DNA of 35,794 nucleotides, taken from contig JAFVOR010000001.1 in assembly GCA_017505725.1 (NCBI GenBank), positions 1-35,794 of the forward strand. The letters are read 5' to 3'. Position numbers and translations under genes: made by a program. The stretch is from Alistipes sp. (lineage in GTDB: Bacteria > Bacteroidota > Bacteroidia > Bacteroidales > Rikenellaceae). Every line of letters begins with the position of its first letter. Positions within the stretch are counted from its first letter, which is position 1. Positions 1-13,424 of this stretch are shown here, piece after piece. Under the pieces are notes generated by a model that worked only from the letters and a program-made list of their open reading frames with translations, was not told the DNA's origin and did no database searches.

Positions 1-450
1 GAATGCCTCGATGCCGAATACATCGACAATCATACCGCCCTTAGTGCGGCACTTAACATAACCCTTGATGATCTCGTCCTTCTCCATCGCCTCGTTAACA
101 CGATCCCACGACTTGAGCTGACGAGCCTTCTTGTGCGAGAGGATGAGCTGACCGCCCTTATCCTCAACCGACTCAACATAAACCTCAACCTTGTCACCAA
201 CCTTGAGGTCTGCATCATAACGGAACTCGGTTGCTGCGATAACACCCTCGCTCTTGTAGCCGATATTTACGATTACCTCGCGCTTGTTAATCTCAGTTAC
301 GGTACCCTCTACGGTCTCACCTACTGCGATGTTCGACATCGACTCGCTGTAAAGCGCCTCGATCTCCTCCTTCGACTGGTTGTAAAGGCCCGACTCGTTC
401 TCAAACGCAGCCCAATCAAAATTCTCGACTGCTACTTTTGTATTCTCCAT
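1..450 (-). CDS. rpsA: 30S ribosomal protein S1, N-terminal 150 residues (gene runs off the window)
   Basis: Ribosomal protein S1 binds mRNA on the small subunit and helps initiation, which matters in Bacteroidetes where Shine-Dalgarno sites are rare. The reading frame is open from ATG at 448-450 to the window edge. It encodes an acidic N-terminus followed by an S1 (OB-fold) repeat at about residues 43-110 (VGETVEGTV, then INKREVIVNIGYKSEGVI), a linker containing LSHKKARQLKSW, and the start of a second S1 repeat (IKGYVKCRTKGGMIVDV). This repeat order fits rpsA and not a single-domain S1 protein. A consensus promoter lies about 100 bases upstream. The C-terminal repeats are outside the window. 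Confidence 0.95.
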   Translation of the reverse strand, partial: MENTKVAVENFDWAAFENESGLYNQSKEEIEALYSESMSNIAVGETVEGTVTEINKREVIVNIGYKSEGVIAATEFRYDADLKVGDKVEVYVESVEDKGGQLILSHKKARQLKSWDRVNEAMEKDEIIKGYVKCRTKGGMIVDVFGIEAF

Positions 451-8201: not shown

Positions 8202-9143
8202 ATGAAGAAGCAGAGTTCTTTTCAAAGAGTTAAGTCGCATCCGATATTCCGCCACCTTCTCCTCATAGTGGGTGTTATGGTCACTTTGGTTGTGTTGGCC
8301 TACATCGCAATGTCGGTGGGTACACGCCACAGCGCACGACGCACAGTGCCTAACTTCGAGGGTGTGTTGATTGACGATGCCATTCGCACAGCCGAGAGTC
8401 GCGATCTCGAGATTATAATCAACGACTCGCTCCACGTGCCGACCTACCCGGGTGGTACGGTGCTCGACCAGCTCCCAAACGGAAATGTGGTGGTGAAGCC
8501 GGGCCGCAAGGTCTATGTCACCATCAACTCCTATCGACAGCGTATGGTCAATGTGCCATTTGTGGCAGGTCGCTCGTTGCGTCAGGCCATCAATATGCTC
8601 GAGGCTGTGGGTCTCGAGGTTGAGCGCATCGACTATGTCGAGGATATCGCCACCAACTATGTTCTGGAGGAGTATTTGGGCGAGGAGATGGTCACCGAGG
8701 AGAGCGACCTCAAGGCGGAGCTTGGTAGCGGAGTGCGCCTGCAGGTGGGTGTTGCTCCCGATGCCAAACCTTTGGCTACGCCGCTTTTGCTTGGTCGCAA
8801 TATGGCCGAGGCGAAGAGTCGCCTATGGGAGTCGGGATTGAATGTCGGAGCGTTGATCTTCGACGAGGGCATCTTGGCTGTCGAGCGTAGTCGTGCCAAG
8901 GTCTATTCGCAGAGTGTTATGGCTGGCGAAGGTATAGAGTATGGTAGCAGCGTAACTCTCTATTTCACGCTCGACGACGAGAGAGTCACCGAGGCTGTGA
9001 ATGCTCACGAGAAGGCGGTACAGCGTGCCCGCGAGGTTGCTGACTCGCTTGCCAATGCCGAGAAGGAGTTGTTGCGTCAGGCCGAGGAGGCAAAGGCGCA
9101 GCAGGGTAGAAACAGCACAAACGAGGATGAGTTCCTCTACTAA
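8202..9143 (+). CDS. Membrane-anchored PASTA-domain protein
   Basis: The 313-residue product has a short cytoplasmic N-terminus, one membrane helix at about 18-42 (HLLLIVGVMVTLVVLAYIAM) and three PASTA repeats at about 47-108, 114-184 and 190-257 (each starting like VPNFEGV, VPFVAGR, PLLLGRN). A charged helical tail rich in Ala and Glu fills 260-313. PASTA domains bind peptidoglycan fragments in Ser/Thr kinases and penicillin-binding proteins. Here no kinase or transpeptidase domain is attached, as is common for the single PASTA protein found next to rluD in Bacteroidetes. A periplasmic cell-wall sensing or scaffold role is inferred. It lies 16 bases after mqnE and seven bases before the pseudouridine synthase gene. 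Confidence 0.87.
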   Translation: MKKQSSFQRVKSHPIFRHLLLIVGVMVTLVVLAYIAMSVGTRHSARRTVPNFEGVLIDDAIRTAESRDLEIIINDSLHVPTYPGGTVLDQLPNGNVVVKPGRKVYVTINSYRQRMVNVPFVAGRSLRQAINMLEAVGLEVERIDYVEDIATNYVLEEYLGEEMVTEESDLKAELGSGVRLQVGVAPDAKPLATPLLLGRNMAEAKSRLWESGLNVGALIFDEGILAVERSRAKVYSQSVMAGEGIEYGSSVTLYFTLDDERVTEAVNAHEKAVQRAREVADSLANAEKELLRQAEEAKAQQGRNSTNEDEFLY

Positions 9144-9150
9144 ACGAGAT

Positions 9151-10287
9151 ATGACAGACGAGAGATACATAGACGAAGAGATGTTCGACGATGCCGAGGT
9201 CGACTTCGACGATGCCGAAGGCGATGAGGAGGATGTGGGCGTGATGCCACGCCGCTTCCTTTCGGACCAGCAACCCGACGAGAACGGACTCTACGAACAC
9301 TTCTCGATAACGGTGGATAAGGGGCAGTCGATGATGCGTCTCGACAAGTACCTCACCACACATATCGAGAACTGCTCGCGCAACCGCATTCAGAATGCCA
9401 TCGACGAGGGCGGAGTCTTCGTGAACGAGAAGCCGCAGAAGGCGTCGTACAAGATTAAGCCCTACGATAAAATCTCGATGCGATTGGCTTTCCCTCGCTA
9501 CGAGGTTACCCTCACGCCCGAGGATATCCCCATCGACATTATGTACGAGGATGACGATGTCATCGTGGTGAACAAGGAGGCGGGTATGTGCGTTCACCCT
9601 GGTCACGGCAACTATTGCGGCACCTTGGTCAATGCCCTCACCTTCCACCTCAAGGATAACCCTATGTTCCAGCAGGGCAACGAGCGTGCCGGCTTGGTGC
9701 ATCGTATCGACAAGAACACCTCGGGCATTTTGGTTGTCGGCAAGAACGAGCAGGCGTGTCAGCACCTCTCGCACCAATTCTTCCTCCACTCCACGCAACG
9801 CCGCTATATTGCGCTCGTGTGGGGTAACTTGGCAGAAGATGAGGGAACTATCACGGGCCATATCGGTCGCAATCCGCGCAATCGCCACCAGATGTATGTC
9901 TTTGCCGATGGCTCGGAGGGTAAGCACGCCGTTACGCACTACAAGGTGCTGCGTCGCTATGGGTATGTCACTTTGGTGGAGTGCCGACTCGAGACGGGTA
10001 GAACCCACCAGATTCGTGTTCATATGCAGTATATCGGCCACCCGCTCTTCAATGACGAGCGTTATGGCGGTGACAAGATATTGAAGGGTACAACCTTCTC
10101 CAAGTATAAGCAGTTTATCGAGAACTGCTTCGAGACTATGCCTCGCCACGCACTTCACGCACGATTGCTCGGCTTCGAACACCCCAAGACAGGCGAGTAC
10201 AAGGAGTTTACGCTCGACCTACCAGCTGACTTTAAGGCGGTGCTGGAGAAGTGGGAGACATATTCCAAAGCTTCGGCTTCTGAATAA
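9151..10287 (+). CDS. RluD-type large-subunit rRNA pseudouridine synthase
   Basis: The 378-residue product converts uridines of rRNA to pseudouridine. It has an acidic, probably disordered N-terminus (about 1-45, EEMFDDAEVDFDDAEGDEED), an S4 RNA-binding domain at about 62-108 (MRLDKYLTTHIENCSRNRIQ), and a catalytic domain with HRIDKNTSGILVV containing the catalytic Asp187. Further signatures are ALVWGN and ECRLETGRTHQIRVHM. The ATG at 9151 follows the PASTA gene by seven bases; upstream in-frame starts lie within that gene. It is RluC/RluD family; the RluD label (23S U1911/1915/1917) is by best resemblance, so no symbol is assigned. Confidence 0.9.
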   Translation: MTDERYIDEEMFDDAEVDFDDAEGDEEDVGVMPRRFLSDQQPDENGLYEHFSITVDKGQSMMRLDKYLTTHIENCSRNRIQNAIDEGGVFVNEKPQKASYKIKPYDKISMRLAFPRYEVTLTPEDIPIDIMYEDDDVIVVNKEAGMCVHPGHGNYCGTLVNALTFHLKDNPMFQQGNERAGLVHRIDKNTSGILVVGKNEQACQHLSHQFFLHSTQRRYIALVWGNLAEDEGTITGHIGRNPRNRHQMYVFADGSEGKHAVTHYKVLRRYGYVTLVECRLETGRTHQIRVHMQYIGHPLFNDERYGGDKILKGTTFSKYKQFIENCFETMPRHALHARLLGFEHPKTGEYKEFTLDLPADFKAVLEKWETYSKASASE

Positions 10288-10369: not shown

Positions 10370-11092
10370 TTATTTTCTTCTGTACACTTTTCCTGTTCCA
10401 CCACAAATACCACATTTTCCTGTTTTACCGTGTTGGCAATTTGGGCAACGAAGGGTTGATCCCGCTGAATGAAACAATCCATCTCCGTTGCAAGTTTGAC
10501 AAGTTCCTGAGCCATAGCATATATGACAATCTTTGTAGCCGTAGTTATCTTGCCAATAGGATTTGTTCTTCTCTAACATTTGTCGTGCAGGGTTGTCAGA
10601 TGGAATATATCTGGAAGAATCTTCAACCGATACTCCACCACCAAGGTTACACTGATTTACCAAAGCGTTAAAATCAGCAATATCCATATGATGAATTCCT
10701 GTCATGCTTCTCATACTGTAATTTGGAAGTTCCATAATATGTACAATCGTGCAATTCGTTACACTATTGATATTTTGAATCAATAACATAGGCCGCGCTA
10801 GACCTAATGAAGGGTCTTTTATATCAGGTGCTTGATAACAACTCATATTACCATCCCTAGCAACTAGTTTGTATGTTGTTTTTTCTGCATGATCAACAAT
10901 TTTATCTTCATATACAGTTAACCACGATACCAACAACTGATTATTATCCGCCATTTGTAACAATTTGTCATTCTTATAAATTTGGACTTTACTACTAGCA
11001 ACTCCTACTATGGTATATGGGAACGACCTATTCTGTGCCGTAACGCCCAATGCACAAATACACATTATAATTAGCGTAAATATCTTTTTCAT
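10370..11092 (-). CDS. Secreted protein with C-terminal DnaJ-like cysteine-rich zinc finger
   Basis: The 240-residue product has a clear signal peptide (MKKIFTLIIMCICALGVTAQ). A mixed beta region of unknown type covers about 21-185. A cysteine-rich tail at about 187-236 has four CxxC pairs (CHIC, CQTC, CPNC, CGIC) and GSG, GDG, GGTG turns like the central zinc-finger domain of DnaJ. No J-domain is present. Secreted proteins with a DnaJ-type finger recur in Bacteroidetes but have no established function, so none is assigned. The gene is clearly more AT-rich than its neighbours, in codons as well as flanks, which suggests recent acquisition. It converges with the RluD-type gene. Upstream on the same strand lie a structured RNA region and a consensus promoter (11431-11462). 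Confidence 0.8.
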   Translation of the reverse strand: MKKIFTLIIMCICALGVTAQNRSFPYTIVGVASSKVQIYKNDKLLQMADNNQLLVSWLTVYEDKIVDHAEKTTYKLVARDGNMSCYQAPDIKDPSLGLARPMLLIQNINSVTNCTIVHIMELPNYSMRSMTGIHHMDIADFNALVNQCNLGGGVSVEDSSRYIPSDNPARQMLEKNKSYWQDNYGYKDCHICYGSGTCQTCNGDGLFHSAGSTLRCPNCQHGKTGKCGICGGTGKVYRRK

Positions 11093-11159
11093 TTCTATTC
11101 AATTTCTAATAACAATCTCCTACTCATTTAACGGCTTTTCGGCTACTCCGTTGTACCTT

Positions 11160-11426
11160 TTTAGAATAGGTTTGCTGGTACGCACAAAAAAAGCGCGGTA
11201 CTTTTAGAATATTCCCTACCTAAGGTGTTTGGCGTAACCTAACAGCAGAATATCTAAAAGCCCGCACCGTATAGTGCGAGCATTCTTGCAATATCCCTGC
11301 TGTTTCTATTTAGTCGCCAAACTTCTAGGTAGCAGAATAAAGCTAAAACGCTTTTCCAAATATGTCTAAAATGTGCGTACTGAAATACGCTAATGTTTCA
11401 TAGGCAAATCTTTTTTGTTTTACTGC
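11160..11426 (-). ncRNA. Candidate structured RNA: one long bulged hairpin
   Basis: The region folds into a single elongated hairpin. Arms, from outside in, are 11178-11186 with 11372-11380 (9 bp, GTACGCACA), 11189-11195 with 11349-11355 (7 bp), 11202-11207 with 11343-11348 (6 bp), 11211-11214 with 11335-11338 (4 bp), 11216-11222 with 11326-11332 (7 bp, CTACCTA), 11227-11234 with 11315-11322 (8 bp, GTTTGGCG), 11241-11248 with 11297-11304 (8 bp, AACAGCAG) and a cap 11263-11267 with 11274-11278 (5 bp). A consensus promoter on the minus strand would start transcription near 11426. On that strand a T7 run at 11193-11187 follows the paired arm and could end it, giving about 240 bases. The outline resembles 6S RNA, but it could equally be the leader of the gene at 10370-11092. 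No known RNA family motif was recognised. Confidence 0.5.
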
Positions 11427-11430
11427 ACCA

Positions 11431-11462
11431 CAAATTTAGAAATTATTTTCGAGAGTTGCAAA
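11431..11462 (-). promoter_or_regulatory. Consensus Bacteroidetes promoter for the structured RNA and possibly the zinc-finger gene
   Basis: On the minus strand TTTG (11462-11459), a 20-base spacer and TAAATTTG (11438-11431) match the TTTG / TAnnTTTG consensus exactly. The predicted start is near 11426, just before the long hairpin and about 330 bases before the ATG at 11092. No such pair is found closer to that ATG. Confidence 0.65.
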
Positions 11463-11474
11463 ATAAAATAAACC

Positions 11475-11580
11475 AATCGTCATTGCGAGAGCCGTTAGGC
11501 TCGTGGCAATCTCCCTCTTTATAATTTAACGACAATAAGGGAGATTCCCACGCTCATTATATTCGCTCGGAATGACGATT
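11475..11580. repeat. Dispersed palindromic repeat, two inverted half-units
   Basis: Half-unit 11475-11514 (AATCGTCATTGCGAGAGCC, then GGCTCGTGGCAATCTCCC) is repeated inverted at 11539-11580 (GGGAGATTCCCACGCTC to CTCGGAATGACGATT). The first half-unit contains its own small hairpin (GAGCC gtta GGCTC). A further half-unit lies at 25888-25928. This resembles the CGTCATTGCGAG-type intergenic repeats seen in many bacteria, possibly REP- or MITE-like. Confidence 0.75.
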
Positions 11581-11604
11581 TGTTTATTAAAGTCGGCAGA
11601 TTAT

Positions 11605-11643
11605 ATGTCATTAAGGGCGCAGCCCGAATATCATTAAATGTCA
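11605..11643. repeat. Dispersed intergenic repeat, copy 1 (ATGTCATTAAGGGC type)
   Basis: The segment has CATTAA words flanking a GGGC-GCCC mini-hairpin and ends in ATTAAATGTCA. A closely similar segment lies at 31821-31862. No gene is present. Confidence 0.6.
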
Positions 11644-11683
11644 CAAACCCCATAAAAATTTTTAATTTTTAATTTTTAATTCT

Positions 11684-11691
11684 TAATTTTG
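11684..11691 (+). promoter_or_regulatory. -7 element for the ygiQ-like operon
   Basis: TAATTTTG matches TAnnTTTG and ends 20 bases before the ATG at 11712. The position expected for -33 is inside an AT-rich repeat and has only TTTT. Confidence 0.45.
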
Positions 11692-11711
11692 CAGTTATAA
11701 CATTAACTGCA

Positions 11712-13424
11712 ATGGGATTCTTGCCAACAACCGTCAAGGAGATGCGCCAACTTGGGTGGGACTATGTCGATATAGTCCTCTTCTCGGGTGATGCCTACAT
11801 TGATCATCCGTCGTTTGGTACGGCGGTGGTGTCGCGTCTCTTCGAAGACGAGGGTTTGCGTGTGGCTGTTGTGCCACAACCCAATTGGCGAGACGATCTG
11901 CGCGACTTCAAGAAGTTTGGCGCACCACGCCTCTGCTTCTGCGTTACAGCGGGCGTTATGGACTCGATGGTCAACCACTACACCGCCAACAAGCGACTGC
12001 GCTCGAACGATGCCTACACCGCAGGTGGTGCAGCAGGCTTCCGCCCCGACTATGCGGTTACGACCTACACCAAAATCCTCAAAAAGCTCTTCCCTACAAC
12101 CCCTGTGTTGATTGGCGGTATCGAGGCTTCGCTTCGCCGACTTACCCACTATGACTATTGGCAGGACGGGTTGAAACCTTCGATTTTGGTCGAGAGTGGA
12201 GCTGACTTTCTGCTCTATGGTATGGGCGAGAGGGTTATCCGCGAGGTGGCTCGAGCAATGCGCAACGGCTACAACGCCAAACTCTTGCGAGGCTTGAAGC
12301 AGGTGGCATACTTGGCAGATAAGAGGTGTGTCGATGCTCTGCCGAGCGACAAAACGATAATGCTCCACTCCTTTGAGCAGTGCCGCAAGGATAAGCGTGC
12401 CTTTGGCGAGAACTTCACCAAGGAGGAGACAGAGAGCAACCGCCTTGAGAGCGAAAATATCCTTGTCGAAAGGACAGGCAACGACTATGTCGTGGTCAAT
12501 CCTATGCACGCTGCTCTCTCGAGCGAGGAGCTCGACTCGGCATTCGACCTTCCATATATGCGAGCACCGCATCCTCGCTACAAGGGGCGTGGTGACATCC
12601 CTGCGTGGGAGATGATCAAGCACTCGGTAAATATCCACCGTGGCTGCTTCGGAGGTTGCTCCTTCTGTACCATTTCGGCGCATCAGGGTAAGTTTATATC
12701 CTCGCGTAGCGAGGCCTCTATTATGCGCGAGGTGAAGGCTGTAACCGAGATGCCGGACTTTCGAGGTACAATCACCGACATCGGAGGCCCTTCGGCAAAT
12801 ATGTATGGCTTGGGCGGTAAGAATAGGGCTGCGTGTGCCAAGTGTGTGCGCCCGTCGTGCCTTCATCCGAAGGTCTGCCCAAATCTCAACAACGACCACC
12901 GTCCACTGCTCGACCTCTATCGCAAGATTCGCACCTTCAAGGGGGTAAAGCACGCCTACATCGGCAGTGGCATCCGCTACGACTTGTTCGACAACTCGGA
13001 CTATCTGCGTGAGGTGGTGGTGCACCACACATCGGGCCGCTTGAAGGTGGCACCCGAGCACACCGAGGATGGGGTTTTGAAACTGATGCGTAAGCCGTCG
13101 TTCTCGTTGTTCGAGGAGCTGAATCGCAATTTCCAGAGAATCTGTCGCGAGAATGGTCTGCGCTATCAGCTCATCCCTTACTTTATATCGTCGCACCCGG
13201 GCTGTCGCGAGGCCGATATGCGAGCTTTGTCGCAGAGGGTACTTGGCAAGTTGCACTTCACTCTGGAGCAGGTGCAGGATCTGACACCTACGCCTATGAC
13301 GCTCTCGTCGGTGATGTTCTATACGGGCGAAAACCCTTACACGGGTGAGAAGGTCTATGTGGCTCGCTCGCAGGATGATAAGCGCAAGCAGAAGCAATAT
13401 TTCTTCAGGAAAAATCAGCACTAA
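11712..13424 (+). CDS. YgiQ family radical SAM protein
   Basis: The 570-residue product is a full-length YgiQ/UPF0313-type radical SAM protein. It has an N-terminal domain with DIVLFSGDAYIDHPSFG and a B12-like-fold stretch (VLIGGIEASLRRLTHYDYW). The radical SAM core contains Cys312-x3-Cys316-x2-Cys319 (GCFGGCSFC), then TDIGGPSANMYG, a second cysteine cluster (CAKCVRPSCLHPKVCPN), LKVAPEHTEDGVL and a C-terminal region with DLTPTPMTLSSVMFYTGENP. The biochemical role of the family is not settled. It is the first gene of a three-gene run, four bases before the next start. Confidence 0.93.
   Translation: MGFLPTTVKEMRQLGWDYVDIVLFSGDAYIDHPSFGTAVVSRLFEDEGLRVAVVPQPNWRDDLRDFKKFGAPRLCFCVTAGVMDSMVNHYTANKRLRSNDAYTAGGAAGFRPDYAVTTYTKILKKLFPTTPVLIGGIEASLRRLTHYDYWQDGLKPSILVESGADFLLYGMGERVIREVARAMRNGYNAKLLRGLKQVAYLADKRCVDALPSDKTIMLHSFEQCRKDKRAFGENFTKEETESNRLESENILVERTGNDYVVVNPMHAALSSEELDSAFDLPYMRAPHPRYKGRGDIPAWEMIKHSVNIHRGCFGGCSFCTISAHQGKFISSRSEASIMREVKAVTEMPDFRGTITDIGGPSANMYGLGGKNRAACAKCVRPSCLHPKVCPNLNNDHRPLLDLYRKIRTFKGVKHAYIGSGIRYDLFDNSDYLREVVVHHTSGRLKVAPEHTEDGVLKLMRKPSFSLFEELNRNFQRICRENGLRYQLIPYFISSHPGCREADMRALSQRVLGKLHFTLEQVQDLTPTPMTLSSVMFYTGENPYTGEKVYVARSQDDKRKQKQYFFRKNQH

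Follow-up and report, generated by a model that had tools for sequence, protein, structure and literature searches.

A structured leader RNA with its own promoter as the probable fixed front of an exchangeable gene slot in Alistipes and other Bacteroidales

A stretch of 35,794 nucleotides of Alistipes sp. DNA (hereafter, the window) contains on its minus strand an element that is probably a 5′ leader RNA, structured and about 290 nt long, with its own promoter of the sigma-ABfr type, forming the fixed front of an exchangeable gene slot. As comparison of sequences indicates, the element belongs to a family marked by covariation that includes a pseudoknot, by the promoter, by a position ahead of genes, by its spread in multiple copies and by an enrichment of exported products. 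An earlier note, made from this one sequence, had considered several readings, of which a leader with its own promoter ahead of a secreted-protein gene was right in kind; one sequence could reveal neither the pseudoknot nor how large the family is, nor that the downstream gene is exchanged.

When the minus strand from 11462 to 11160 is folded, its predicted energy is −90.4 kcal/mol; dinucleotide shuffles give −65.2 kcal/mol (sd 4.8), none of 100 being equally stable (z −5.25). The nested arms said to form one hairpin beyond chance are present. The plus strand likewise folds above chance (z −3.84), because the element is a near-palindrome. The minus-strand promoter had been called exact, and it is: a −33 box TTTG (11459–11462) and a −7 box TAAATTTG (11431–11438), both exact matches, are separated by 20 bases. 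Across the family, TTG-18..22-TAnnTTTG is found in 94 of 113 members versus 1.1 expected from letter shuffles of the searched stretch, and TAnnTTTG lies near 110 of 113 (9.5 expected from letter shuffles). By this pattern, the family copies carry a promoter of the Bacteroidetes (sigma-ABfr) type.

Two covariance models were built, R1 from 31 type I sequences with the window excluded, and R2 from 31 type II sequences (alignment A6) with the window included. R2 places the entire structured leader, which is of type II, at 11117–11408 of the minus strand (292.5 bits, E 2e-58, the window copy being one of the 31 sequences used to build R2). R1, from whose construction the window was absent, finds it on the same strand at 11387–11145 with 36.5 bits and E 6e-12, obtained without filters; the runner-up scored 7.5 bits. 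E-values of such home-made models are rough. The hairpin had been placed correctly in the earlier note, with a 3′ limit that was too short; the element extends to 11145 by R1 and to 11117 by R2, and takes in the pseudoknot partner at 11157–11153.

All parts of the window copy lie on the minus strand. The arms of the outer stem H0 are at 11372–11380 and, directly beyond the T run, at 11178–11186 (95.3% of cells paired in alignment A6). P1 joins AAAAGCG (11349–11355) to CGCTTTT (11189–11195), with 99.1% of cells paired, and a further nested arm pair is present at 11343–11348/11202–11207. The core stem, GTTTGGCG (11315–11322) with CGCCAAAC (11227–11234), is paired in 100% of cells, and 7 of its 8 pairs are invariant across type II. 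The stem 11297–11304/11241–11248 is variable and covarying, with both-side changes at six pairs in type II. The apical hairpin GCTCGCAC/GTGCGGGC (11260–11281; arms 11274–11281 and 11260–11267) is paired in 97.2% of cells and has both-side changes at 3 of 8 pairs in type II. A nine-codon frame in the apical region had been offered as a possible leader peptide. The frame is present, and its ATGCTC start recurs in 27 of 31 relatives; because the stop after nine codons is found in merely 8 of those 27, the leader peptide is unsupported and the frame is best read as chance, riding on the conserved hairpin.

Type II leaders carry additional features. A P0 hairpin, GCGTA/TACGC in the window (11375–11390), is an alternative fold whose 3′ arm is common to the outer stem, so that the two helices are mutually exclusive. 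P0 reaches 5 bp or more in all 31 sequences and the outer stem 7 bp or more in 25 of them, counts made without a shuffle control. Upstream of P0 lies a putative micro-ORF, seen in type II only, which in the window is ATGAAACATTAG (11390–11401; MKH, stop); in all 31 sequences it begins ATG AAR and is closed in frame at codon 4 or 6, giving MKH, MKN, MKY or MKHxV.

A test for covariation had been proposed, and compensatory base changes, by which a cis-regulatory leader is recognised, were found in type I and in type II. The 12 strongest covarying column pairs among 114 copies all fall in stacked helices or in the pseudoknot; this set merges identical copies (119 to 114) and leaves out 22 opposite-strand rows and the incomplete or short matches L136, L123, L089, L129, L126, L139 and L098. 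In type I, 563 cells carry both-side changes versus 137 in shuffles (0 of 500; 98 distinct copies, in an alignment fitted to the model). In type II there are 124 such cells versus 64 in shuffles (0 of 500; the 31 sequences of A6), but two of five measures fail to beat the shuffles, namely the count of pairs with both-side changes (reached by 52 of 500) and the number of pair types (reached by 441 of 500). The pseudoknot joins a basal bulge of the long hairpin to the 3′ hairpin. In type I (helix 9; arms CAACTCC and GGAGTTG), it is 96% paired, with both-side changes at 5 of 7 pairs. Its arms in the window are GTACC (11197–11201) and GGTAC (11153–11157), with about 74% of cells paired in type II, where the variants GTACC/GGTAC, GTTCC/GGAAC and GTGCC/GGCAC occur. 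The 3′ hairpin of the window is paired in 66% of type II cells.

A run of seven T after a paired arm had been proposed as the terminator. The run is present, one base from where it had been placed (11186–11192, by direct reading of the sequence), and the P1 3′ arm merges into it. As a terminator, however, it is contradicted by the type I tract, which is often interrupted (e.g., CTTTCTGTTTT, CTTTCTTATTT), and by the pseudoknot partner downstream of it. The same two observations, the covarying partner beyond the run and the broken type I tracts, make it very unlikely that the element is a stand-alone small RNA, 6S-like or trans-acting, that ends at the T run with the downstream gene as a bystander, even though a T-rich tract does follow the P1 3′ arm and multi-copy sRNA families such as FopS exist in Bacteroides (available parts of PMC11697453). 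Gene starts that cluster 9–21 nt past the model, and the lack of a 6S match in Rfam, also count against it. As far as the available parts of PMC11697453 describe them, the FopS sRNAs have about a dozen paralogs per genome, sigma-ABfr promoters and an effect on SusC and surface functions, and are trans-acting, with a single-stranded 5′ stretch and a terminator. Relative to that description, the leaders are alike in their many paralogs per genome and sigma-ABfr promoters, and differ in being long hairpins with a pseudoknot ahead of genes.

We compared the leader with known RNAs through the Rfam scan for 6S RNA and riboswitches that had been suggested. The whole window gave zero matches at gathering thresholds, and at E up to 10 the interval 11000–11720 gave no 6S family, the sole relevant match being a sub-threshold DUF805b tail. 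A known riboswitch, another of the earlier readings, was not borne out, as Rfam matched no known class in any stretch scanned. 6S and 6S-Flavo RNAs resemble the leader in their long bulged hairpin, but the leader has no Rfam match, exists in many copies and is placed ahead of genes. 6S RNA, expected in one or two copies per genome, was rejected as a candidate on copy number (15 R1 matches plus the window copy). The earlier 6S-like reading fails on the missing Rfam match, on a copy number of 16 or more in the own genome and on the gene that follows every inspected copy. DUF805b RNA (RF02914, classed as cis-regulatory) matches the window tail at 11151–11117, which holds the 3′ hairpin, below its gathering score (29.9 versus 35.6 bits). 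Of 16 further type II loci scanned at E up to 0.05, 8 share the tail match, in one case above the gathering score, and DUF805b, too, sits directly upstream of start codons. The motif reportedly comes from the Weinberg 2017 motif paper. Because it is just 35 nt long and also occurs alone, DUF805b is at most a separable tail of the leader RNA. One stand-alone DUF805b RNA (L224, 2632–2666; 49 bits) lies between two ORFs, with no leader-like sequence before it.

To establish the extent of the family, DNA and covariance searches were combined. A DNA search of the window's own genome brought up one copy with 78% identity (L002), along with several short stretches matching the promoter; matches to the promoter pattern also lead into long bulged hairpins and then a gene (z −4.5 to −7.8 for the six folded). 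L002 scores 36.8 bits with R1, and the promoter-sharing L003 merely 11.1 bits, so that the membership of L003 is doubtful. With 15 R1 matches and the window copy, the own genome holds at least 16 copies. Within the genus, the window sequence as query matches 57 of 180 genomes, and L006, one of these promoter-led hairpins, 52 of 61. The type I sequences behind R1 are of the latter kind, and the type II sequences behind R2 come from the former matches. The homologues in Bacteroidales genomes that the earlier note had proposed to search for were found with the covariance models: R1 finds copies in 112 of 150 genomes of the family Rikenellaceae (16 of 22 genera) and, at the level of the order, in 42 of 295 genomes (32 of 184 genera, with six candidates scored per genome). 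One genome, G057, has 23 distinct copies. Among 296 genomes of the phylum, 8 have an R2 match, all but one of them outside the order, and R1 independently matches 6 of these 8 loci. The leader again lies upstream of exported-type genes there, some of which, judged by eye, we take to be SusC-like. A search of named genomes with an 18-base core gave at least 117 stretches; 73 of the 80 scanned contain the RNA, mostly in Alistipes, Rikenellaceae and Tidjanibacter MAGs. The other seven, among them Agrobacterium, Xanthobacteraceae, Maricaulaceae, Cloacimonadota and Zixibacteria, lack the RNA and form a natural negative set. The majority of the genomes compared are MAGs; a cultured carrier with a complete genome is Alistipes sp. 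dk3624 (NZ_CP045651.1, L132). Tandem leader-like copies about 110–125 nt apart were seen in G068 (C1:256894–257104 and 257228–257449) and also in G477 (C8:72464–72719 and 72831–73089).

The leader family is large, multi-copy, at home in gut Bacteroidales and apparently unnamed. No published description was found, including in the available parts of PMC2864571, PMC8040213, PMC11697453, PMC7366714 and PMC9723704. As far as their available parts go, PMC8040213 gives thousands of candidates in supplements and PMC9723704 catalogues 64 structured leaders, so an earlier, unnamed sighting of the family is possible.

Multiple near-palindromic copies, with the opposite strand of the same place scoring up to 38 bits, are also what a MITE or other mobile hairpin would give, and a MITE-like inverted repeat had been the main alternative in the earlier note. 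This reading is hardly credible. Pairwise identity between own-genome copies is 0.85 at most, with a median of 0.58; the stems carry compensatory changes; the same place is kept between species, including in a sister genome; and one type I query gave no phage or plasmid match.

An ORF on the same strand follows 107 of the 114 copies within the 250 nt searched, and in 61 of these 107 its start codon lies 9–21 nt past the model end. A crude rule scores 39 of 52 downstream products as exported, compared with 75 of 231 control ORFs from these loci; the corresponding counts for lipoprotein-like products are 29 of 52 and 29 of 231. In both comparisons the length limit was 120 aa for the control set and 60 aa for the downstream set. 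The downstream families are diverse (LRR_5 7, DUF4988 6, Mfa_like_1 5 and BACON 4 among 100 scanned).

At conserved sites, the gene behind the leader tends to change. The window and its sister genome G047 are 85% identical in the upstream flank, 92% in the leader and 87% in the far flank; homology ends at 11144 and returns at window 10350. The conserved neighbours are a radical SAM family gene upstream (11712–13424, plus strand; PF08497) and an RNA pseudouridine synthase gene on the far side (9001–10287, plus strand; PF00849). Between them lies the present slot gene (10370–11092, minus strand), whose 240-aa product has a signal-peptide-like start, CxxCxGxG repeats and no Pfam match. It has no counterpart at the same place in G047, where the gene is unrelated.

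To generalise this comparison, we collected 25 same-site pairs with at least 400 bp of common upstream flank among 142 loci; these pairs are few, not independent (several stem from one locus) and mostly from MAGs. The upstream flank is homologous in 22 pairs at 0–700 bp and in 19 at 700–1400 bp, and the leader in 21, whereas the downstream gene is homologous in 0 pairs at the nucleotide level and in 1 at the protein level. Six pairs show homology in the far flank too, which makes misassembly less likely. Most of the 304 homologous downstream-protein pairs come from a single 36-protein cluster; the two members of a pair occupy different sites in 299 cases and the same site in 2, with 3 undecided. 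There are counterexamples: the same-site gene is conserved in L300/L307, and in L135/L150 and one more of the 304 pairs, and it is partly conserved in L107/L146. Among complete or near-complete genomes, the gene is exchanged in L285/L295 and conserved in L300/L307; the leaders fail to align in L284/L313 and L292/L305. Mean identity in same-site pairs is 83.9% for the leader and 81.9% for the flank, and the two are weakly correlated (0.31, n=21). Two of the 25 pairs have type I in one member and type II in the other. A common upstream flank before a type I leader and a type II leader was observed in L045/L263 and L038/L261.

Junctions were analysed in 21 of the 25 pairs, leaving out four with no leader match or one of just 64–66 bp. 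Homology ends 1–45 nt past the P1 3′ arm in 17 of the 21; three of the remaining four end at 65–104 nt, and one row (−116) is a motif misplacement. In the window, too, same-site homology ends at this arm or beyond. What the aligned sequences show is that, at sites which are themselves conserved, one gene takes the place of another while the leader stays, and that the junctions lie at the leader 3′ end.

Junctions at so narrow a place raise the alternative that the element is primarily a DNA recombination site, either an attC-like folded hairpin or a tyrosine-recombinase attachment site, with RNA structure secondary. One locus speaks for it. In the complete genome G144, a type I leader is interrupted at its P1 3′ arm by a foreign insert of about 16.6 kb. 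Ahead of the insert, 683 bp match L149 at 99.4% identity, and beyond it the remainder of L149 resumes. The insert, an integrative mobilizable element (L325, G144:C1:2532500–2552000) inside the leader, has a copy of the direct repeat TCCACGCTT on either side and encodes two tyrosine integrases, HTH_17, DUF3987, Mob_Pre, an AbiEi-like/AbiEii pair and a NERD/UvrD-like protein. A filled site with direct repeats and an empty site (L149), the signature of a tyrosine-recombinase attachment site, were thus found in one type I case, and the leader can therefore serve as an attachment site. Such use may, we infer, drive the ordinary gene exchange. As an account of the element as a whole, we nevertheless consider a recombination site unlikely. 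The conserved pseudoknot arm to the 3′ hairpin, the promoter and the spacing to the start codon fit an RNA only and therefore count against it. The G144 integrases have no tblastn match in the other leader loci compared, the integrated element was seen in one genome, and each of the 73 matching loci has one plus-strand copy, with no second site 3′ of the exchanged gene in the stretches compared.

Two known systems of recombination offer partial parallels. In attachment sites within tRNA genes or other RNA genes (NBU1-like), a structured RNA gene has an integrase core near its 3′ end. The leader resembles them by an integrase core near its 3′ end in one case, G144, but leaders are many and dispersed, each ahead of an exchanged gene. 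In integrons (attI/attC), a fixed promoter and a recombination end lie ahead of exchangeable promoterless genes, and the leader slot likewise has a fixed promoter and a recombination end before an exchangeable gene. It differs in that no arrays and no integron integrase were seen in leader loci, and in that the slot's 3′ boundaries fall at neighbours' ends or terminators; none of six such boundaries inspected by eye was leader-like. An integron cassette was rejected, with one plus-strand match per matching locus (73 of 80 loci) and no second site behind the gene in the loci compared.

Our preferred reading is still that of a leader RNA at the front of a gene slot. Transcription would begin at the leader's own promoter, and the RNA would form a long bulged hairpin, its base tied by the pseudoknot to a short 3′ hairpin that would end, as a rule, 9–21 nt ahead of the start codon. 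The leader would most likely control translation, or early termination, of whichever gene follows. In type II, the exclusive P0 and outer-stem helices together with the micro-ORF would form a switch. Genes would be exchanged by recombination, site-specific or homologous, in the 3′ part of the leader.

Type I copies suggest a further element. A block of DNA resembling CAATRYCCC-n-GAGTGTTGTTCGTTT overlaps and precedes the −33 box in 76 of the 114 type I copies. It corresponds to the reverse complement of two RNA arms encoded behind it; the window copy has no such upstream block. The block matches its own RNA better than the RNA of other copies (0.791 versus 0.741 for the right part, 0.811 versus 0.788 for the left), an excess reached in 0 of 5000 permutations, in which relatedness was not controlled. 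Block and arm appear to co-vary in the single copies L052, L055, L125 and L141. When the folding of read-through transcripts is predicted, 40 of the 76 show pairing between the block and the left arm. A neutral account of the block would be template-switch correction of inverted repeats.

A broader reading, which we put forward tentatively and hold possible rather than probable, is a genome-wide plug-in system in which dispersed docking sites swap exported-protein genes under one RNA-level control. A genome would have from ten to more than twenty docking sites, each with a promoter and a structured leader RNA whose 3′ arm would double as the recombination core, and a swapped-in gene would at once come under the common control. 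In type I, misfolding caused by the upstream block would disable read-through transcripts, leaving those started at the own promoter as the only working ones. If this holds, surface and secreted proteins could be swapped while their control stays constant, and RNA regulation would be tied to horizontal gene exchange in dominant gut bacteria. The leaders would then constitute a phylum-level RNA family, unnamed in current libraries, with up to 23 distinct copies per genome, and the leader model would provide a handle for listing the fast-changing exported genes of Alistipes and its relatives.

Upstream of the window copy, at 11478–11582, lies a palindromic repeat, about 105 bp long, for which the own genome gives 17 matches. 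It was observed less than 200 bp upstream of a leader copy in four cases, namely the window, C75:5064, C43:17636 and C75:60206.
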